A model generated the notes under the pieces. The model made no database searches. It was not told the origin of the DNA and saw only the letters and a list, made by a program, of their open reading frames with translations. DNA of 46,242 bases, taken from Salinisphaeraceae bacterium (GTDB lineage: Bacteria; Pseudomonadota; Gammaproteobacteria; Nevskiales; Salinisphaeraceae). Location of the stretch: positions 1-46,242 of the forward strand of contig NYTH01000011.1 of NCBI GenBank assembly GCA_002683405.1. The letters run 5' to 3'. Position 1 is the first letter of the stretch. Each line of letters begins with the position of its first letter. Of this stretch, positions 17,302 through 28,503 are shown one piece after another. A program made the translations under genes and the position numbers.

Positions 17302-17748
17302 TCAGCGGCCGACCCACGGCCGTGGCGGCTCCGGAAGCTGCTCGCCGGCCGGCGGTTGTTCGAGTTCGTAACCCAGCACCGGCCGGTAGTCGGACGACCG
17401 AATCTGATGCCAGTGCCGCAGCCGCTCCAGATTGGCCGACAGTACCGGATCATCGGGCGCAATTTTCAGCGCGCGCTGCAGCAACTGCTCGGCCACACCG
17501 AGCCAGCCCTGCTCTGCCATATCGATGGCGTGATTGTTCAGCCACACCGGGTCGAAAGGATTCGCGTCGGCCGGCAGGCTGACGCTGCGCTCGCCATTAC
17601 GCTCGCCGCGATTGGTGAAGGGGTTCTCCGCAAATCGCGCCTGAGCCGCCGGGTCCGGCACCGCCTGCGCCCTGGCCGCGCCCACCGTGCCGGCCAGGGT
17701 TAGCGCCAGGAGGTAGGGGACCACGCTGTGCCGGCCGATCGCTACCAC
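17302..17748 (-). CDS. Small secreted protein with TPR-like segment, end of bcs operon
   Basis: A 148-residue protein with an N-terminal signal peptide (hydrophobic stretch about 9-24, cleavage after AARAQA or nearby). The mature part has a single TPR-like unit (WLNNHAIDMAEQGWLGVAEQLLQRALKIAPDDPVL, ~68-103). The GTG start at 17748 overlaps the bcsC stop by 7 bp, with GGGGA upstream. I do not recognise it as a named Bcs subunit. Its position as the last gene of the cluster, and its TPR resemblance to the BcsC periplasmic region, suggest a periplasmic accessory factor for cellulose export. It converges with the ParA gene, with no visible terminator between. Confidence 0.7.
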   Translation of the reverse strand: MVAIGRHSVVPYLLALTLAGTVGAARAQAVPDPAAQARFAENPFTNRGERNGERSVSLPADANPFDPVWLNNHAIDMAEQGWLGVAEQLLQRALKIAPDDPVLSANLERLRHWHQIRSSDYRPVLGYELEQPPAGEQLPEPPRPWVGR

Positions 17749-20700
17749 GAGGGATCCCCGGTGTAGAACGGGGCGAGGAAGCGCGGCGCCGGCATGCTCG
17801 CGGGTGCCTGCGGCCGGAACCAGTAGCGGATATAGGCGCCCACGCCCATCTCGTCGTAGTCACGCGCATTGCTGAAGGTCGACTTGCCGCCCACCGAGAA
17901 ATGCGGCGTGAGCATGTACTCGGCCGCGGCGTGGAAGCCGATGTTGGCGCCGGTTTCGTCGGTGCCTTCGTAGGTCGTTCGGCCGTCGATGCCGCCCGCA
18001 ACCTCCAGCCGATCCTGGAGCCCGCCGAAGTTGCCGGGGAAGATATCGGCGTCGTCTTCGTCGAAGGCCTGGATGCCCAGGCTGCCGCCGATCCGGTAGG
18101 CCAGCCGCTCGTGACGACCGGTCCACTCGATGGGAATACTCACTGCGGTATAGAACTGCGGGCTGAAGTAACCGCCGTGACCCACCGTGAACTCACCCAG
18201 ATTCTCCTCGTAGAACAGGGTGGTCAGGTTGACGCCAACGGTCAGCTCGCTGTTTCTGCGCTGCATCAGACGATGATAGTAGCCGCCGCCCAATTCGAAA
18301 TTGAGGTTGTCCTCGACCTTTTCGCCTTCGAGAAAGTAACCCCCGAAGTTGGCATAGACGCCGTTCACGCCGAAGTCGCGGGCAATATCGACCCGAGCGC
18401 CGTTGCGGGTCACGCCGCCGAAGCTCGCTTCCTGTCCGGCCAATCCGTCCAGATAGGGATCATGCGTACCGGCATAGGACAGCAGACTGTCGGTGACCGA
18501 CCGGCGGGCAATGTCCACGCTCAGGAGCACGTCGTCGAAGGTCGGCGTCCAGCGGATGCCGCCCACGAGATTCTCTTCCTCGAAGCCCAGCGGAGTCGAG
18601 CCGATATCCAGCCGAAGATTGTTCAGCTCGTAGACCACACCAAGCGCGACGCCGTTGTCGGATTGGTCATAGGCGCTGTTGGACGCGGCAATGGAGGCGG
18701 CCGAGCCCGTGCCGTTTTCGGCCTCCGCCAGCGGCAGCGCGCCAAATGCCAGAGAGTTGAAGCCCGACACCCGGCCGGAATCAAGCGCGACCGGGATAAC
18801 GCGGAAACGCAGACGTCCCGGCCCGGCTTCGCCCAGACTGAACTCCAGCGGAGTCTCAACGTCGGTCAATTCCCCCAGACCGTCCTGACCATCGCGATAG
18901 CGCAGGTTCAGGCCCGCCGCCAGCCAGCTGCTGCGCTGAGACTGAATCGTGGCGATCTCGTCTATCAGCTCGCCGCGCGGGTTGCTCGTCCGGCCAGGCG
19001 GCGCGTCCGCGGTGGGGCTGTAGGGGCCGTCGTTGTATCGCTGGGCAAGCCGCATCCGCCGCTGCGGCTGATACATGGCCTCGTTGACGGTCTGGCGGGA
19101 CATCATGTCCGAGTTGTTCTGATACGCCGTACCCGGCACCTGCCGACCCTGGTAGCCGCCGCCATGTGCCGCCGGATAACGCTGTTCCGCCGCCTGCTGG
19201 TACTGCCGCGCCTGTTCGGCATAGGCTCGCGCCTCAGGTCCGGACCGTGCTGTCTCGCGCCGGAACGCATAGGCCTGCGCCGGTTCGGCCTGCGCCCGTG
19301 ACTGGGTGGGCTGACCGAAAGGATTCTGATTGTCCTCCCGACGGTATTCCGCCGGCGTGCCGACCGGCCCGAGGCCGTCGTTCACACGGATCGAATCGAG
19401 CGCGAGCGCCTGCTTGAATAGCGACACCGCCTCCTGATCGTTGCCCTGGGCCCGCTCCATGCGACCGGCCAGGACATACAGACGAGGATTCTTCGGATCG
19501 CGCTCAAGCGCGCGCTTGACCAGCCACTCCGCTTCGTCGTACTTGCCGGACGCCGTCGCGGCGCTGATGGCGCCCTCGTAGGCCTTGACGTCATCAGGAT
19601 TGCGTTCCAGCACGTCGTAGTAGAGGTCGAGCGCGTCCAGCGGCTCGTCAAAATCCATGTAAAGCCGGGCCAACGCCATATTCAGCGCCGCGTCTTCCGG
19701 ATCGGCCGCCAGATGCGGACGCAGATGTTCATAGGCATCCGCCAGCAGACCCTGTTCCCGAAGTGCATCGGCCTTCTGGACGGCAAAACCGGCTTCCAGC
19801 TGGGCGAGCCCCTGCCGCTCACTAACCGACAGACTGTCGTACTGGCCGCGCAGGGCTCTGAGCTGGCCGCGGAACTCGGCCTCCATGCCCTGCTGCGACA
19901 GCAGGGAAGCATACTGCAGACGCAGCGCCGGGCTCGGCCTGGCGGTCGAGTTCATTGCCTTGCGCAGCATGGCCAACGCGCGATCGGACTGACCGATCTG
20001 GGCGTAGCCTTCCGCCAGCGCACCCAGGGTTTCAATGTCCTTGTCCGGCAGGCTGTTGATCCGTTCCAGCGCGGCTTCCGCGCCTTGCAGATCGCCATTG
20101 CGCGCCATCACGGAGGCGCGGTTGGCTTCGTAGCGCATCCACATGCGGCGCTGCAGTGCCTGCATGTCGGCGGTTCTTGCATTCGCCGGTACCCGTTCGA
20201 GGGTGCGCAGCCCTTCCAGCCAGCGCTCTTCTTCCGCGAGGATCAGCGCACGGATGAAAAGCGCTTCCGGCGTGGCGTCGCTGCCAGCCGTCAACTGCTC
20301 AAGCATGGCGTTCGCCCGACCAGTCTGGCCCGTTTGCCGATACAGATCGGCCAGCAGCAGCCGCGAGTACGGGCTGTCCGGATCGGCTTCAATGGACTGA
20401 TTGAGCAGCTGCTCGGCACGGCGCGCATCGCCGTCACGCATTGCCTGGGCACCGGCTTCACGCAGTGCGGTGGCCTGCAGGCTGTCCAGGCCGGCAATCT
20501 GCTGACGCTGCTCGGCCGGAATACTCTCGGCAAATCGCAACGCCTCGTCGCTGCGACCCAGTCGGCTCAGGGCGTAGATCTTGCCGCGTGCTGCGCCTGC
20601 GTTGCCCGCATCGGAAGAAAGCACCCGGTTGTACTGGGCCAGCGCGTCCTGATTCCGTCCGGCTTCGGCCAGGGTATCGGCATAGCTCACGCGCACCGCG

Positions 20701-21914
20701 GTTTCACCCGGGCGGGCCTGCAGCGCATTTTCGAACAGGCTGATCGCTTCGGCCCGATCACCATTCTGACGCGCCTGCTCTGCCGCTTGAACACGGGACC
20801 ATACCCGCGCGCTCGATAGCGAATCCTGCCAGCGACTTGCGGTGGAGGGCTGCTGGCGGGAGGCCTGCTGTAGCAGCGCCTCCGCCTGGCCGAACTGTTG
20901 TCGCTTGAGCGCGATGATGCCCAGGCCACCCAGCGCATTCGCGTTGTTCGGTTCGCGGCTGCGCAGGTCCGAAAAGATATTCTCGGCCTCGCCCAGGCGG
21001 TTGTTGTTGAGCGCGTCGAAACCATCGCGCGCCTGCTTGTCGGAGCGTGAAAGCGTGTACGGAGCAGGACTCGTGGTCCGTGGCCCGCCACGAGGGAAAT
21101 CACGCTTGACCTGGGCATAGCGCGACTTGATGGCGCCGTCCTGCGGGTGGTCCTCCAGATAGCCCTGGTACAGGCCGTAGTCCCCGCTGCGCGCGTCCAG
21201 CCATATCAACGCCTGACGGCGAGCCGCCTGAGCGCGACTGGCGACAGACTGGCGGCCCTCCAGGTCGGCAAGAATGCCTATGCCGTCGCGGCGAGTAGCT
21301 TCCCGATAGGTCAGATGCTCGGCATACGCCAGACGATAGCGCGGATCATTGGGATTCTCCTCGCTCAGGCGCTTGAGGCCGGCGCGGGCCTCCTCCCAGC
21401 CATCAGAGGTGCCGCCGAGAGTCTGGTAGAACTCCAGGCCCAGCTCACCACTCGGCTGGCGGTTGCCGAAATGCTCGCGGTACTTGCTTATGGCCTGAGC
21501 TTTCTGGTCATTTTGCCCCAGTTCCCGGGCGCGAGTCAGCGCCTGAGTGTCGTTCGGCTCGGGATCCCTGGCTTGCGGCGCCGGTTTCGTTCCCGCGGTT
21601 TTGATGGCCCCCAGACCGGGGTGATCGGGGTTAACCGCGCGCAGCCGGTCACGATAGCTCTGGGCCAGGGATTCGTCGCCCGCGTAGGCGGCGGCCGTGC
21701 CCAGCGCCGCCAGCGCGTCGGTATTGTCCGGATCGGCAATCAGGACCTTTTCCCAGGCTGTATTTGCCAGATCCTGACGCCCGCGTTTTTCCCAGAAACG
21801 GGCCTGTTCGACCACCTGGGACACGCTTGCTTCTGCTGCGGTGCCGAGCGAGGGAAATGGCAGCGCCACCACGAATGTGAATGCAATGGCACTCAGTGAA
21901 ATAGCTCGCAACAC
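17742..21914 (-). CDS. bcsC: Cellulose synthase outer-membrane export protein BcsC
   Basis: A 1390-residue protein in the upper range for BcsC. It has a signal peptide (1-27), then a long TPR superhelix (about 30-860) with repeated A-x-x-G/PDNPxA patterns that bridges the periplasm. Next comes a linker rich in Gln, Tyr, Arg and Pro (about 880-980), and last a C-terminal BCSC_C outer-membrane beta-barrel (about 1000-1390). It conducts the glucan across the periplasm and outer membrane. The GTG start at 21914 is supported by GGAG at 6-nt spacing and overlaps bcsZ by 22 bp. The Gln/Tyr-rich linker between scaffold and barrel is unusually long and low in complexity. Confidence 0.95.
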   Translation of the reverse strand: MLRAISLSAIAFTFVVALPFPSLGTAAEASVSQVVEQARFWEKRGRQDLANTAWEKVLIADPDNTDALAALGTAAAYAGDESLAQSYRDRLRAVNPDHPGLGAIKTAGTKPAPQARDPEPNDTQALTRARELGQNDQKAQAISKYREHFGNRQPSGELGLEFYQTLGGTSDGWEEARAGLKRLSEENPNDPRYRLAYAEHLTYREATRRDGIGILADLEGRQSVASRAQAARRQALIWLDARSGDYGLYQGYLEDHPQDGAIKSRYAQVKRDFPRGGPRTTSPAPYTLSRSDKQARDGFDALNNNRLGEAENIFSDLRSREPNNANALGGLGIIALKRQQFGQAEALLQQASRQQPSTASRWQDSLSSARVWSRVQAAEQARQNGDRAEAISLFENALQARPGETAVRVSYADTLAEAGRNQDALAQYNRVLSSDAGNAGAARGKIYALSRLGRSDEALRFAESIPAEQRQQIAGLDSLQATALREAGAQAMRDGDARRAEQLLNQSIEADPDSPYSRLLLADLYRQTGQTGRANAMLEQLTAGSDATPEALFIRALILAEEERWLEGLRTLERVPANARTADMQALQRRMWMRYEANRASVMARNGDLQGAEAALERINSLPDKDIETLGALAEGYAQIGQSDRALAMLRKAMNSTARPSPALRLQYASLLSQQGMEAEFRGQLRALRGQYDSLSVSERQGLAQLEAGFAVQKADALREQGLLADAYEHLRPHLAADPEDAALNMALARLYMDFDEPLDALDLYYDVLERNPDDVKAYEGAISAATASGKYDEAEWLVKRALERDPKNPRLYVLAGRMERAQGNDQEAVSLFKQALALDSIRVNDGLGPVGTPAEYRREDNQNPFGQPTQSRAQAEPAQAYAFRRETARSGPEARAYAEQARQYQQAAEQRYPAAHGGGYQGRQVPGTAYQNNSDMMSRQTVNEAMYQPQRRMRLAQRYNDGPYSPTADAPPGRTSNPRGELIDEIATIQSQRSSWLAAGLNLRYRDGQDGLGELTDVETPLEFSLGEAGPGRLRFRVIPVALDSGRVSGFNSLAFGALPLAEAENGTGSAASIAASNSAYDQSDNGVALGVVYELNNLRLDIGSTPLGFEEENLVGGIRWTPTFDDVLLSVDIARRSVTDSLLSYAGTHDPYLDGLAGQEASFGGVTRNGARVDIARDFGVNGVYANFGGYFLEGEKVEDNLNFELGGGYYHRLMQRRNSELTVGVNLTTLFYEENLGEFTVGHGGYFSPQFYTAVSIPIEWTGRHERLAYRIGGSLGIQAFDEDDADIFPGNFGGLQDRLEVAGGIDGRTTYEGTDETGANIGFHAAAEYMLTPHFSVGGKSTFSNARDYDEMGVGAYIRYWFRPQAPASMPAPRFLAPFYTGDPSW

Positions 21915-23035
21915 GTTCGGCTCCAGAGTGGTTCTAACTGTCCGTCATCAATAATCTTGTAGCGATCCGTCAGCCAGCCCTGACCAAAAAGCAGGAGGAC
22001 GTAATCGTAATACTGAGCGTCATCGCCCCTTGACTCGTCGACGCCGGCTTCGGAGAGCGCCTCTGGGTCAAGCATTCCGGCTTCGAGGGCATGCAGGTAG
22101 GGCAGCAGCGCCCAGCTGAACCCGGGCGGGCCGAGCCCGCTCGTTTCCCCGCTGCGCGTATCCACTGTTTCCGGCACGCTCTGGCGATCTACCAGCAGGT
22201 CGCGCATGCCATCCAGCGCCTCGGGTGCCGGCGCTCGATCCGACCACAAACCGGACCAGAGGTAGGTGCGGATGGCATCATAACTGCCGATCCAGCCGGT
22301 TTCCGGATCTTCGATCACACCCTCGCCGTCGCGAAAGGTCAGCCAGTCCGGCGCCAGACCGCGCTCGTTGTGCTCGGCCAGCAGTTCCGCGTGATTCGAG
22401 GCAATCTCGCGCCACGGCCCCGCCGGCTGATACTTGGCCAGGCGCGCCATCAGAAACGCCGGCACATAGCTGGGATTGAGGCGCCATACGCCCTCTTCCG
22501 GCGTGAACCCCCGGGGCGCAGGCAGCAGGACACGGCCCACGCCGGGAATGGTGTCGGTCGATTGCTCGAGCGTCATCTCCAGCAGTGCGTTGGCCAGCTC
22601 GAGATAGTCGTCTCCGCCCCACAGACGATAGGCCTCTATCAGACTGTAGGCCATCCACAGATCCGCGTCGCTGGCCGGATTATCGTCCAGCACACGCCAC
22701 TCGCCGTTATCGGCCTGACCCCACAGCCAGGCGGGCAGCTTGCGCTTCATGCTGCCGCCCGAGAGGTTGTTCTCGGCCCATTTCAGTATGGCGTCAAAGC
22801 GCTTCTGATCGTCCGCCACCAGCGCAAAGAACATGGCGTAAGCCTGCCCCTCCGAAGTCGACCGACTACCGGAGAGATAATCGATCACGCGCCCGTCCTC
22901 CTGGACGAAACGCTCGGTAAAGGTTTTCCAGGATGTCCAGTCACGCTGGCACTGCCACCAGGTCCAGAACGCCGCGCTCGCCCCCAGCGAGGCGAGCACG
23001 GCAATTCCGATAGCAGCAGTACGCGCATGCCGCAT
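21893..23035 (-). CDS. bcsZ: Cellulase BcsZ, glycoside hydrolase family 8
   Basis: A 380-residue endo-beta-1,4-glucanase of the cellulose operon that trims the nascent glucan in the periplasm. The signal or anchor segment is at about 8-27. Conserved GH8 features are Glu62 in STSEGQAYAMFFAL (general acid), NPASDADLWMAY (119-130) and GSYDAIRTYLW with Asp253. The gene starts 4 nt after bcsAB stops and overlaps bcsC by 22 bp, so it is tightly coupled to both. Slightly longer than E. coli BcsZ (368). Confidence 0.95.
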   Translation of the reverse strand: MRHARTAAIGIAVLASLGASAAFWTWWQCQRDWTSWKTFTERFVQEDGRVIDYLSGSRSTSEGQAYAMFFALVADDQKRFDAILKWAENNLSGGSMKRKLPAWLWGQADNGEWRVLDDNPASDADLWMAYSLIEAYRLWGGDDYLELANALLEMTLEQSTDTIPGVGRVLLPAPRGFTPEEGVWRLNPSYVPAFLMARLAKYQPAGPWREIASNHAELLAEHNERGLAPDWLTFRDGEGVIEDPETGWIGSYDAIRTYLWSGLWSDRAPAPEALDGMRDLLVDRQSVPETVDTRSGETSGLGPPGFSWALLPYLHALEAGMLDPEALSEAGVDESRGDDAQYYDYVLLLFGQGWLTDRYKIIDDGQLEPLWSRTCCELFH

Positions 23036-23039
23036 GCAG

Positions 23040-26000
23040 TTAGCTCGCGCTCACTCTTGCGCGCGAAGCCGACCGCAGGGCGCGGTATACGACGATCGCC
23101 AGGACCAGGACGATGCCCAGCGCCAGCACCAGCAGCAACAGCGGCTGCTGGGAGAACCACCAGTGGATACGAGTGGTCAGCGGCAGCGAACCGCGATAGT
23201 GGATATCGCCCAGCCGGTAGTAGTTCACTGCGCCCTCGCTGACCAGCGTTACATCGCCCTGCACGAACTGAGAACGTGACGGGTTCTGCAGCAGATCGGC
23301 CAGCTCCGGCAGGCGGCTTTCGTCACGCGCGAAAACCGCGACCACGTCGCGATCAGAGGACAACGGTGACTCGAACCCGACGATGGCGCCCAGATCACCG
23401 CTGCTTTCGGTGATCACCCGCCCGGCATGCTGCTGGGCGGCCTCGATATCCCGATTGGCGATCAGCGAGGTCACACGATCAATCCAGCCCAGCGTCCGCA
23501 GGCTGACCTGCCCGGACTCCAGCGACAGCGGCATGTGCTCGCTCCACTGCGCCAGCAGGGGCTGGGTTTCCGGCGTGCCGAGCACCAGCACGTCGTGGCC
23601 CGCCATGGCCGCCGTATCGGCGCCCAGCACCGTCTTCACGCGAATCGCGGGATAGCCGGTATTCCGACCCACGTGGCCCATGATCATCAGGTAGGCCTCG
23701 ATGGCCTGATTCGACGGGTTGGACGGCAACGCCACGATACTCTGACGCAGGTCGGCCAGGCGGCTGAACGGGAAGCCCGAATTGGCCAGCTTGGCCAGGT
23801 CCGGCATGCGCGAGTAATGGGAGAGGCCGCTCAGGTCGATGGTGGACGACGGGTCGATGATGCCCACCATGTTGTCCAGAGAGCTTCGGCACTCCGTCGG
23901 CGTTCTTTCGAAGAAGAAGCGGAACGACATGCGGCTCGTGCCGGCCAGCTCGTAGCCCGGCAGAAACACGGTGGCCTCGTCGTGCAGCATCTCGCGGCCA
24001 CCGACCGCCTTCTCCAGCATGTTCGGCTCCATCTTGCGCGCGCTCAGTTCCAGGCCGCGAACGAAGGTGTCGTTGATGCTGACATTCATCGTCGAGTTGC
24101 CGACGTAATACGGAGGGGTATAGCGGTACTTGAGATCAACCGGCACGCCATCGGAGCGCCAGGTGAACAGGTCCGGCGGCGTCGCAAAGTCGAAGGACAC
24201 CGGCGGCGGCTCGTAGCCTTCCGACTGGAGCCGCTGCCGATTCTCCAGAATCTGGGCGAACTCGACCGGCTTGTCCGTCGGAATCCAGCGCGGCGCATCG
24301 TAGGGCTTGCGGGGCTCGGGCTGGATGACTTCGCGAATCAGCGCGTAATCACCGGACATCGCCGGGCTGCCGATGGTGACGGCACGCGCAGCGTTGTTCA
24401 GGGACTCGGCATCGCTGCCTGCCACCACGAGCAGCTTACCGCCCTGCGGGTTTTCCTGAATCGCCACTCTGGCGCCCTGGCCTTCGGGCACACTCACACC
24501 GGCCGGCGCCTGGTTGCCGTTGACGAACACAACCGCGTTGCCCGGCGGCAGATTGCCCTTGAGGGCAGGAAAGGTCGCGCCGCGATAGCTGGCAAGACCA
24601 CCGAACCAGGACGCAACAATACCGGCCGCATTGAGCGTGCCGGCCGACGGCTCCGCCGGAAACACGAAAGGCAACTGCAGCCGCGCCGCATCACGCTTGT
24701 CGAAAAACGGCCTCGGCAGATTCGCCAGATCGTTCACGGCGTTCAGCGGCCTGGCATTGATATTCAGCGTACTGCGGTTGCTGATCAACCCCCACAGCGA
24801 GCTGTGGAAATCATCCTCGCACTCCAGCGTGTAGTGGGCGATGAACTCGAACGTGATCTCGTTATAGTCCACGAACAGGCGCGGATCGAGCTCGACCTGG
24901 CGCTCGGCGCCGTCGGCCGTGTCGTCATCCAGCGCCAGCGACTGAGCCAACTCGCCATTGACCAGGATATTCAGGTGGCTCAGCTCGTAAATGAGTGCGT
25001 TGGAGTGGGCGATGTTCAGCGTGAGACTCGCCGAGTTGATGACTTCGTCGGTGCGCACCGAAAATGGCACTTCGAAGCGATCATCCGTGCCGCGCAGGCG
25101 AATCGGCTCCCCCACGCCCAGCTGGCGGAAGGTAATGCGGCGCGTGGCCGCCTGGCTGTCCGGACGCTCGAGTTCGCCGCTGTTGGCGGACGCCTTGATG
25201 CCGACCGACTGCTGGGCACGCACCTCCGGCGAGGCCATCAGGCCGGCGCCGACCATGAGCGCCACGACCGCAGCCGTAGCCCGCGGGGCGCGTCGCAGCC
25301 AGGAGAAGCTCAACGCCGTCTTGACCCCGCCAAAGCCGTAGCGAATGACTTCGCCCGCCGACTTGAGCGGATGATCCACGTCGCGCTCCTCGCGCCAGCC
25401 CACCCAGGCGTCGGCGCGGCCGAACATCACGTAAACCAGATGGCGCCTTTCCGCCAGCGTTAGGTCCCCAAAGCGCAGGCGTATGTTCTTGTCGTCCACT
25501 GTCACTACCTCTGCTGGCAAGTAGGTTTCATTATCGGTTTCGGGCAGGATCGCCAACTGCACGCTGTCGCCGGCCTTCACGCCGGGGACCGCGCGCCACT
25601 TCAGCGAGCTGCCTCCCAAGGAAATGTCGTCGGTGGTCACCGACAGGAGCTGATTGTCCGGCAGGCGAAGAAACGCCGGGAGCTTGTGCTCGACGCGGGT
25701 CGAGCGGCGCCCCTGGCGCGCCTCGCGCGCCACGGCCACGCCGGCGCCGAGAAGAATGATGTTGTACAGCGCCCAGACCATGTTGAGGATCACGGTATCG
25801 ACCTCGTATGTGTTCCAGAACAGCAGGCGGCCAATGCCCACCAGAAAGCCGATGATGTTGGCAAAGAGCATCAGGAAGAACGGCCAGGCGATGTCCGTAT
25901 CGATATAACTCTTCTCGATGATGCCGCCCTTGTCGGTCACGTTGAACTTGCCCAGCTTGGGGTTGATCAGCGCGAGCCACGTGGGGCGCATGATGTGCCA

Positions 26001-27494
26001 CGCCAGCACGGTTTCGTAGGCCTCGGCCCAGAAGGAGTGGCGATACGGTCCCTGCATGCGCGACGTGGCCACGTTGGAAATGACCAGATGCGGTAGCACG
26101 TAAACGGCGATGAGCAGCGCCCAGGCCTGGAAAATATGGGCTTCGAGGAAAAGATAGCTCAGCGGCGCAATCAGGAAGATGACGCGCGGCACGCCGTAGA
26201 AGAAATGCAGCATGGAGTTGGCGTAGCACAACCGCTGCCCCCACTTCAGGCCCTTGCCCAGGAACGGGTTGTCCACCCGGAAGATCTGCGCCATGCCGCG
26301 CGCCCAGCGAATACGCTGGCCCACGTGGCCCGACAGCGACTCGGTGGCCAGACCGGCCGCCTGCGGGATATTGATGTAGGCGCTTTTCCAGCCCGCCCGG
26401 TGCATCTTGAGCGACGAGTGGGCATCCTCGGTGACGGTTTCCACCGCGACGCCACCGATTTCCTCCAGCGCTTCCCGGCGCATGACGGCGCAGGAGCCAC
26501 AGAAGAACGAAGCGTTCCAGAAGTCGTTGCCGTCCTGCAGCAGCCCGTAGAACAACTCGCCCTCGTTGGGCACCTTGCGAAAGATGTTCAGGTTCCGCTC
26601 GAACGGATCCGGCGAGAAGAAATGGTGCGGCGTCTGGACAATCGCCAGGTCCTCGTCTTTCAGAAAGCCGCCGACGGTGACCTGCAGGAACGACCGCGTG
26701 GGAATGTGGTCGGCGTCGAATATGGCAACCAGATCGGCGTTGGTGCGCGCCAGGGCGTAATTGATGTTGCCGGCTTTCGCGTGTTCCGAGGTCGGCCGCG
26801 CGATATAGCCAATACCGGCCTCCTCCGCCAGCACCCGGCAATCCTCCCGAGCGCCATCGTCCAGCACGAAAATGTTGATCTTGTCGGCCGGCCAGTCCAG
26901 ATCACTGGCGGCAAGAATGGTCGGGCGAATCACGTCCAGCGGCTCGTTGTAGGTCGGAATGAACACATCGACCGTGGGCCACTCGCCGGTATCGGGCGGC
27001 AGCACCGTGGGCTTTCGCTTGAGCGGCCAGAGCACCTGGAAATAGCCCATCACCAGCACGACCAGGGCGTAGATTTCCGCGCCGAGCAGCGCCATCGTGA
27101 AGATCAGATCGAGCGTACTGACCAGCGGATCACCAATGCCCAGCGTGTCCGTCACGCGCCAGTACATGTACCGGAAGCTGCTGATCAGTGAGAACAGGAT
27201 CAGGATTACGGAAACCAGATGGCCTTCGTACTGCCTGATCCAGAAGGCGACGATGAGACTGCCCAGCGCAAAAAGCGCCTGCCATTTAAGATCCAGCGGG
27301 GTGGTCACCAGCACGTAGACCGCGAACGCGGACACGATAGCGATCAGCCATATGACCAGGCGATTGCCCCACAGCCCGGATTCGCTCATCCGGTTGAGTC
27401 GAGGCACGAACCAGCCGCTCCGCCGCCAGGAGGCGCCGGGCGTATGCTGCTCGTCATTGATTACGGCCTGCTGCCGTCTTTCATCGTTCGTCAT
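23040..27494 (-). CDS. bcsAB: Fused cellulose synthase BcsA-BcsB
   Basis: A single 1484-residue ORF joins catalytic BcsA and the periplasmic subunit BcsB. BcsA part (1-~730): membrane helices around the GT2 domain, with DDG (212-214), DAD (260-262), TED (355-357) and QRIRW (393-397), all needed for UDP-glucose binding and processive transfer. The PilZ domain has Arg596/Arg600 (RxxxR) and DISLGG (623-628), so c-di-GMP activation is expected. At 734-760 a hydrophobic stretch ending PEVRAQ looks like an internal signal peptide, and BcsB follows to a C-terminal anchor helix (~1450-1475). Start: ATG 27494 with AGGGGGG upstream; an in-frame GTG 27566 is less likely. The fusion recalls AcsAB of Komagataeibacter. 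Confidence 0.95.
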   Translation of the reverse strand: MTNDERRQQAVINDEQHTPGASWRRSGWFVPRLNRMSESGLWGNRLVIWLIAIVSAFAVYVLVTTPLDLKWQALFALGSLIVAFWIRQYEGHLVSVILILFSLISSFRYMYWRVTDTLGIGDPLVSTLDLIFTMALLGAEIYALVVLVMGYFQVLWPLKRKPTVLPPDTGEWPTVDVFIPTYNEPLDVIRPTILAASDLDWPADKINIFVLDDGAREDCRVLAEEAGIGYIARPTSEHAKAGNINYALARTNADLVAIFDADHIPTRSFLQVTVGGFLKDEDLAIVQTPHHFFSPDPFERNLNIFRKVPNEGELFYGLLQDGNDFWNASFFCGSCAVMRREALEEIGGVAVETVTEDAHSSLKMHRAGWKSAYINIPQAAGLATESLSGHVGQRIRWARGMAQIFRVDNPFLGKGLKWGQRLCYANSMLHFFYGVPRVIFLIAPLSYLFLEAHIFQAWALLIAVYVLPHLVISNVATSRMQGPYRHSFWAEAYETVLAWHIMRPTWLALINPKLGKFNVTDKGGIIEKSYIDTDIAWPFFLMLFANIIGFLVGIGRLLFWNTYEVDTVILNMVWALYNIILLGAGVAVAREARQGRRSTRVEHKLPAFLRLPDNQLLSVTTDDISLGGSSLKWRAVPGVKAGDSVQLAILPETDNETYLPAEVVTVDDKNIRLRFGDLTLAERRHLVYVMFGRADAWVGWREERDVDHPLKSAGEVIRYGFGGVKTALSFSWLRRAPRATAAVVALMVGAGLMASPEVRAQQSVGIKASANSGELERPDSQAATRRITFRQLGVGEPIRLRGTDDRFEVPFSVRTDEVINSASLTLNIAHSNALIYELSHLNILVNGELAQSLALDDDTADGAERQVELDPRLFVDYNEITFEFIAHYTLECEDDFHSSLWGLISNRSTLNINARPLNAVNDLANLPRPFFDKRDAARLQLPFVFPAEPSAGTLNAAGIVASWFGGLASYRGATFPALKGNLPPGNAVVFVNGNQAPAGVSVPEGQGARVAIQENPQGGKLLVVAGSDAESLNNAARAVTIGSPAMSGDYALIREVIQPEPRKPYDAPRWIPTDKPVEFAQILENRQRLQSEGYEPPPVSFDFATPPDLFTWRSDGVPVDLKYRYTPPYYVGNSTMNVSINDTFVRGLELSARKMEPNMLEKAVGGREMLHDEATVFLPGYELAGTSRMSFRFFFERTPTECRSSLDNMVGIIDPSSTIDLSGLSHYSRMPDLAKLANSGFPFSRLADLRQSIVALPSNPSNQAIEAYLMIMGHVGRNTGYPAIRVKTVLGADTAAMAGHDVLVLGTPETQPLLAQWSEHMPLSLESGQVSLRTLGWIDRVTSLIANRDIEAAQQHAGRVITESSGDLGAIVGFESPLSSDRDVVAVFARDESRLPELADLLQNPSRSQFVQGDVTLVSEGAVNYYRLGDIHYRGSLPLTTRIHWWFSQQPLLLLVLALGIVLVLAIVVYRALRSASRARVSAS

Positions 27495-27679
27495 TGGCGG
27501 AGCGATCCCCCCTGTCAAGATCGCGGCGAAGTTCGACGTGTAGCGGCTCCTCAGGCACGCCGCCACCGCTCTTCGCGCTTCTTTATTCTATGTTCACGCT
27601 TTCCGTGCTTCCCGACTATTATTGTGCAGCCACAAAGCTCCGGCGTCGCGACGCGCAGTATACAACACTGATTTGCCTT

Positions 27680-27744: not shown

Positions 27745-28503
27745 CTACAGAAGCGTTCTGAGCCAGGCGGCGATTCCTCGAATATCCCTGGCGGCCACCG
27801 ATCGGCTGTTGTAAACGGTCACGGGCTGCCGGCAGGCAAAGGCTTCCTGGACCGACATGTCCGAATGAATCTGCCATAGCGGCGTGCGGCTGCCCAGCGT
27901 TCGCTTCATCACCTGCACCACGTCGCGGGTCAGCGGTTTGTCCCAATCCGTCTGGTTGGCCACATAGTGCACACCCGGCCAGCGATCGCGTTCGCCGCAG
28001 TATTCGCTCAGATAACCATTGACGGCGTCCAGCGTCGCAAACGAAGCGGCGTCGGCGAGCAGTACCACCATGATGATGTCGGCCGCCCGCATGACCTGCC
28101 GCAGATACACGCTGGGCCCGGGCGGCGTGTCAATGAGGATCAGCCCGTGATCAAAGCCGTCGAGCTGCGTGTTCAGCCAGTCCGGATCGTCCTGAAGCAT
28201 GCGCTCGAAGGCTTGCCGCTGGCGATCGCTGCTCGCGCCGTAACCCAGACACTCCACCCCGGCAGGGCTTCGGTGACAGGCCGCCTGGAATGATCCACCG
28301 TTCAAGGCGGCCGGCAGCAGCCCACGCCCGTCCACTACACCGGCGCCATGGTGCAGACGCAACATGTTCTGCGGATCGAGATCGACCGTGAGCACGCCGT
28401 TGCTCTTGCCGCCGCCCGCAAGCAGCAGCGCCGCGGCCAGATTCGCCGTCAGCGTTGTTTTTCCCACGCCACCTTTCGGCGACACCATCGCAATTCGAGC
28501 CAA
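27745..28503 (-). CDS. bcsQ: Cellulose biosynthesis ATPase BcsQ
   Basis: A 252-residue ParA/MinD-like ATPase. It has SPKGGVGKTTLTANLAAALL at 8-27 (deviant Walker A), VDLDPQNMLRLHHG (Walker A'), LILIDTPPGPSVYL (Walker B) and a C-terminal SVQEAFACRQPVTVY, which aligns with the corresponding part of E. coli BcsQ (YhjQ). E. coli BcsQ helps localise and assemble the synthase. Unlike some E. coli proteins, this one has the full lysine-containing Walker motif. The TTG start at 28503 is supported by GGGGGG six nt upstream. It lies 33 nt after the BcsP-like gene and 250 nt before bcsAB. Confidence 0.9.
   Translation of the reverse strand: MARIAMVSPKGGVGKTTLTANLAAALLLAGGGKSNGVLTVDLDPQNMLRLHHGAGVVDGRGLLPAALNGGSFQAACHRSPAGVECLGYGASSDRQRQAFERMLQDDPDWLNTQLDGFDHGLILIDTPPGPSVYLRQVMRAADIIMVVLLADAASFATLDAVNGYLSEYCGERDRWPGVHYVANQTDWDKPLTRDVVQVMKRTLGSRTPLWQIHSDMSVQEAFACRQPVTVYNSRSVAARDIRGIAAWLRTLL

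Follow-up and report, generated by a model that had tools for sequence, protein, structure and literature searches.

Cellulose synthases of the Bcs family combine BcsA, which ends in the cytoplasm, with BcsB, which is periplasmic and carries a signal peptide at its N-terminus in systems where the two are encoded by separate genes. Here we describe a fused BcsA-BcsB gene in a 46,242-nucleotide stretch of a Salinisphaeraceae genome (contig NYTH01000011.1; the whole stretch is called the window below), in which a joint resembling the former BcsB signal peptide lies between the two halves and is probably cut by signal peptidase I. A comparable case is FbcH of Bradyrhizobium, the cytochrome b/c1 precursor of an unrelated respiratory complex: it too is a fused membrane-protein precursor, and it is cleaved where the signal of the second half lies within the chain. 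Among cellulose synthase structures, chains A and B of the E. coli complex 7LBY match the two halves of the fusion and chain A of 4HG6, BcsA of Rhodobacter sphaeroides, matches its BcsA half; unlike the fusion, both systems consist of two separate genes.

Closer to this locus is AcsAB, which the preliminary description of the stretch had given as reportedly processed into two polypeptides. This is indeed stated for G. hansenii ATCC 23769 in the passages on AcsAB of PMC4877109, which, citing another paper, describe AcsA-AcsB as a single polypeptide that is proteolytically processed, with AcsA at 83 kDa, AcsB at 93 kDa and bands at ~80 and ~95 kDa. Like AcsAB of Novacetimonas hansenii, the gene in the window runs in one frame through BcsA, PilZ, a signal and BcsB. 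Unlike it, the window has another joint sequence, bcsQ precedes the fusion while bcsZ and bcsC follow it, and processing is what we infer here; the N. hansenii linker past the signal is also longer.

A signal-like joint inside the fused protein

The minus-strand frame fuses BcsA (glycosyltransferase plus PilZ) to BcsB over 1,484 residues when translated from its ATG, or 1,508 from a possible GTG start upstream at 27566. All three domains (GT2, PilZ and BcsB) stand in a single frame, as in AcsAB-type fusions, with the BcsB domain at residues 784-1387 (Pfam PF03170, 1.6e-200). Against NCBIfam models the fusion scored 852.3 bits with TIGR03030 (above the cut-off of 699.1) and 747.8 bits with the BcsB model NF008323 (slightly below the cut-off of 750), and it contains the single BcsB of the source genome.

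Between PilZ and BcsB lies a signal-peptide-like joint. Residues 725-755 read K-T-A-L-S-F-S-W-L-R-R-A-P-R and then A-T-A-A-V-V-A-L-M-V-G-A-G-L-M-A-S, the core ending at S755, and residues 756-762 continue with P-E-V-R-A followed by Q-Q. The basic stretch (K725, R734, R735, R738), hydrophobic core and VRA-then-QQ context agree with the anatomy given earlier for residues ~734-760. The joint thus has the positive n-region and hydrophobic core of a Sec signal at an internal position (residues 725-760) rather than at an N-terminus, and would act like a signal peptide without being a classical one. Given the cytoplasmic end of BcsA and the periplasmic location of BcsB established for the family, it must cross the membrane once, N-in/C-out, an orientation that its charges also suggest.

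We propose that the fusion is the precursor of two proteins. On insertion of BcsA its PilZ end would stay on the cytoplasmic side, as expected from the topology of the family; residues 725-760 would serve the Sec translocon as an internal N-in/C-out signal sequence, sending the BcsB half to the periplasm; and signal peptidase I would cut after A760, leaving BcsA (85 kDa) with the signal as a C-terminal membrane segment and BcsB starting at Q761 (79 kDa), the two presumably made in equal amounts. Predicted masses are 164.4 kDa for the whole fusion and 85.3 and 79.1 kDa for the products, and the genome holds one gene of the signal peptidase I family PF10502 (6.5e-57).

Similar features recur across 103 fused BcsA-BcsB loci (99 distinct joints). 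A charge-free hydrophobic window separates BcsA from BcsB in all 103, with a lowest mean hydropathy of 1.8, and 95 of the 99 distinct joints carry a net positive charge ahead of the core. The motif [AVST]xA falls in a fixed window near the hydrophobic end in 93/103 loci, in some of them inside the core. By eye, the other ten have A or G at -1 and then Q or E (with a slash at the cut: SRA/Q in two, ALG/Q in three, and VSA/E, LRA/E, LRA/Q, GWA/Q and AAA/Q once each); for one locus (L195) the automatic hydrophobic window fell on an earlier stretch. Since the joints are rich in Ala, AxA alone is weak proof.

Conservation by column is more telling. We used a BcsB tree to define clades among the fused proteins and aligned the linkers, and in the three clades tested the -3, -1 and +1 columns are kept and -2 and +2 are variable. 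In the clade of the window (18 loci, 17 distinct), the composition is A10/S4/V3 at -3, A17 at -1 and Q17 at +1, with entropies of 2.58 at -2 and 2.68 at +2 compared to a linker mean of 2.17, and none of 30 linker placements is equally conserved. The pattern goes beyond chance, the three columns being kept in 17/17 distinct sequences. The Roseomonas-type clade (n = 23) has A22/T1 at -3, A16/G4/S2/Q1 at -1 and Q22/A1 at +1 (1/57 placements equally conserved), and the Gluconacetobacter/Komagataeibacter clade (n = 24) has A19/S3/G1/V1, A21/G3 and Q21/A3. As a control we used the N-terminal anchors of BcsZ from 14 loci of the window's clade, omitting three with a lipobox-like Cys (L012, L015, L025). 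In these 14 anchors, two columns spaced two apart are never both small throughout, and the best pair (10/14 ungapped, 12/14 gapped) lies within the core. The proposal that the old BcsB signal peptide is kept at the joint is well supported by comparison with relatives, and of the two outcomes offered with it, cleavage is favoured over the uncleaved linking helix because conservation extends beyond hydrophobicity to the signal-peptidase positions.

Gln at +1 was rejected as a mark of fusion. The motif [AVSTGLI]x[AGS]-Q occurs at 86/102 fused joints and in 28/68 unfused BcsB, and it is not specific to fusions because BcsC of fused-BcsAB loci carries it too (32/46).

Weighing cleavage against other readings

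Cleavage by signal peptidase I after A760, making the fusion a two-protein precursor, is the best and most likely reading of these sequences, because an uncleaved helix needs no kept -3, -1 and +1 positions. An uncleaved transmembrane helix tethering BcsB to BcsA would suit the 17-residue core in the window and the median hydrophobic length at the fused joints (17, n = 103), which is near that of the BcsB C-terminal segment (19, 87 measured), but it leaves unexplained the small residues and Gln at -3, -1 and +1 beside variable -2 and +2, and the BcsZ anchors of the same clade lack this pattern. With the AcsAB of a relative stated as processed in the AcsAB passages of PMC4877109, we consider a tether unlikely.

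It is likewise improbable that BcsB is made mainly from an internal TTG or GTG start upstream of the core, with the joint then serving as an ordinary N-terminal signal peptide. In the window, TTG and GTG stand 13 and 35 codons ahead of the best hydrophobic window, with anti-Shine-Dalgarno energies of -6.3 and -8.1. There is a mild enrichment of Shine-Dalgarno-like sequence ahead of internal start codons, an energy of -6 or better being found for 23.8% of start-type codons before joint cores (n = 252) compared to 10.0% in BcsA (n = 2,826) and 13.7% for other codons in the same stretches (n = 3,312). Internal starts would also fit the BcsB hexamer that the E. coli complex contains according to the relevant part of PMC11379886, which a 1:1 fusion does not supply. 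However, ATG is absent from the 35 codons that precede the core window in this gene, and internal starts are not general, because 12 of the 99 distinct fused genes have no ATG, GTG or TTG in that space. Internal initiation could act alongside cleavage.

A sequencing or assembly error joining genes that are really separate is hardly credible: fused (29) and not-fused (27, as read) forms do coexist among 56 loci of the order, but the frame is stop-free through PilZ, joint and BcsB, and the same fusion is present in other genomes of the clade.

Besides the Shine-Dalgarno enrichment, several results weigh against cleavage after A760. A von Heijne weight matrix scores 7.2 at VRA/QQ and prefers LMA/SP at 9.9. 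It reaches 3.5 or more in 99/99 fused joints and also in 408/427 BcsA control stretches, and as a judge of single sites it was rejected as too permissive. As sets, the fused joints are separated by this matrix from BcsA stretches (area under the curve, AUC, 0.905), linker shuffles (0.792) and c-region shuffles (0.677), and they score near unfused N-termini (0.415). A motif model trained by expectation maximization on unfused BcsB N-termini gave AUCs of 0.83 against BcsA transmembrane ends and 0.69 against shuffles, and ranked fused joints below its unfused training set (0.24). The window scored at chance under this model (58th percentile of transmembrane ends; 54% of its own shuffles scoring as high), which had drifted off the site and was dropped as a predictor. 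With the site models too unspecific or failed, the case for a signal peptide rests on comparison.

The comparison has weak points of its own. Cores are slightly longer at fused joints than in unfused proteins (medians of 17 and 14.5). The site column was chosen in each clade by a script for smallness and low entropy, which flatters its rank, and in the Gluconacetobacter/Komagataeibacter clade, whose linker alignment contains a second conserved stretch, 14/88 placements are equally conserved. The script's choice does not account for the variable -2 and +2 columns that alternate with the kept ones. Lastly, if N. hansenii JCM 7643 AcsAB were cut at its joint, products of 83.6 and 84.6 kDa (total 168.2) are predicted; the first value agrees with the 83 kDa given for AcsA of another strain in the passages cited from PMC4877109, and the second is lighter than the 93-95 kDa given there for AcsB.

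Fused and separate genes

On a BcsB tree of 128 rows (76 fused, 52 not), the fused/not-fused label changes at least 10 times, 9 of them forced by starred branches. Without four not-fused rows that look masked or frame-broken (L105, L142, L163, L175) it changes 6 times, and 5 times if long-branch rows are also removed (111 rows left). Judged from this tree, the genes seem to have been fused and/or split more than once, and the passages on fusion and bcsAB in PMC9693552, which do not mention a signal peptide, report variable linker sizes and hold several independent fusions likely.

Fused and separate forms can be compared directly in the relatives of AcsAB. The fused joint of N. hansenii JCM 7643, KMVSLLALLTFASSAQA followed by A (spelled out, V-K-M-V-S-L-L-A-L-L-T-F-A-S-S-A-Q-A and then A), matches the N-terminus of separate K. 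xylinus BcsB, MKMVSLIALLVFATGAQA followed by A. The genes are separate in five aligned loci (K. xylinus, nataicola, rhaeticus, oboediens and europaeus), where bcsB starts M-K-M-V-S-L-I-A-L-L-V-F-A-T-G-A-Q-A and then A, one base past the bcsA stop; at the position of this ATG, the four fused relatives in the alignment carry GTG. The K. xylinus group and two further loci (L026, L028) are placed among fused rows on the tree. In the K. xylinus group, the stretch ahead of the bcsB ATG, read in the bcsB frame, resembles the linker of fused forms (RKER). It was considered as a relic of a former fusion and rejected, its local alignment being no better than shuffles: 279-878 of 1000 codon shuffles scored as high in five loci, as did 802 and 294 of 1000 for L026 and L028. 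Anchoring the comparison at the DNA level gave chance results as well, with 1322-1632 of 2000 shuffles reaching the score in ten comparisons.

A joint that functions as a signal peptide would make gene fusion or splitting nearly neutral for the proteins, which would account for fused and separate forms alternating with the cut site kept. We lean slightly towards the broader view that BcsA-BcsB fusions are generally polyproteins matured by signal peptidase. From the fused form, BcsA and BcsB would then be synthesized 1:1, in contrast to the E. coli complex, which is rich in BcsB, and a fixed ratio would apply to synthesis only; how equal amounts from a fused gene relate to the hexamer described in that part of PMC11379886 is a question of stoichiometry. 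Processing of fusions is known in kind, and what is useful here is how widely the joint is conserved: one reported case, hansenii AcsAB, is extended to a testable rule for the fused cellulose synthases collected, with a likely cut residue and enzyme named. The literature searched, which left most subscription papers outside, states that AcsAB is processed but yielded no account that compares an internal signal peptidase site among fusions; this is weak evidence of newness.

Locus and sampling of relatives

Features of the locus are listed in Table 1. The 299-residue protein upstream of bcsQ has an N-terminal BcsR match (PF10945, residues 9-48) of 26.4 bits against a cut-off of 25.2, and is far longer than the 41-position model.

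Table 1 Features of the cellulose synthase locus in the window
Feature	Coordinates	Strand	Evidence
Fused BcsA-BcsB frame	23040..27494	-	ATG start; translation, Pfam, NCBIfam
GT2 catalytic domain, residues 177-347	26454..26966	-	PF00535 7.5e-26
PilZ domain, residues 595-691, cytoplasmic end of BcsA	25422..25712	-	PF07238 2.5e-11
Basic n-region of internal signal, residues 725-738	25281..25322	-	Sequence
Hydrophobic core, 17 residues, A739-S755	25230..25280	-	Sequence, hydrophobic window
c-region P-E-V-R-A, residues 756-760; putative signal peptidase I cut after A760	25215..25229	-	
Predicted mature BcsB, residues 761-1484, with hydrophobic C-terminal segment	23043..25214	-	PF03170, translation
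bcsZ, GH8 endoglucanase, downstream neighbour	21893..23035	-	PF01270; NF008305 above cut-off
bcsC, tetratricopeptide repeat (TPR) and outer-membrane subunit, downstream	17742..21914	-	PF05420 8.6e-94; NF008520 below cut-off
bcsQ, upstream neighbour	27745..28503	-	TIGR03371 3.7e-58, above cut-off
BcsR/BcsP-like gene, upstream, 299 residues	28537-29436	-	Marginal PF10945

At E 0.001, the Pfam BcsB model found relatives in 1/17 genomes of the family, 50/85 of the order, 26/369 of a class sample (23 above cut-off) and 86/398 of a phylum sample (83 above cut-off). The 56 loci of the order were taken from 59 places listed, and some read as not fused are perhaps broken frames, such as L041, which contains a stop. 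One order locus (L009) is identical over 4830/4830 bases to that of a metagenome-assembled genome named Stagnimonas sp. (L199), a genus placed in Nevskiales by NCBI, and the pair was counted as one sequence. Of 413 related stretches in a contig scan with a Komagataeibacter fragment as query, the 80 best were kept; most of them carry the names Komagataeibacter, Novacetimonas, Gluconacetobacter, Roseomonas or those of relatives.

Plasmid-borne fused genes are named in Sphingobium, Croceicoccus and Novosphingobium; those of four sphingomonads (L115-L118) adjoin bcsC, with bcsQ annotated in three of the four. In K. europaeus (L142) and Acetobacter syzygii (L163), bcsAB appears to be broken by a change of frame, located in the linker or near the start of BcsB; from their sequences these look like recent loss or sequencing error. 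The hydrophobic start of BcsZ is very near the catalytic domain in 14/17 fused loci of the window's clade, the window included, and for that reason this cellulase may be attached to the membrane instead of being a free periplasmic enzyme.

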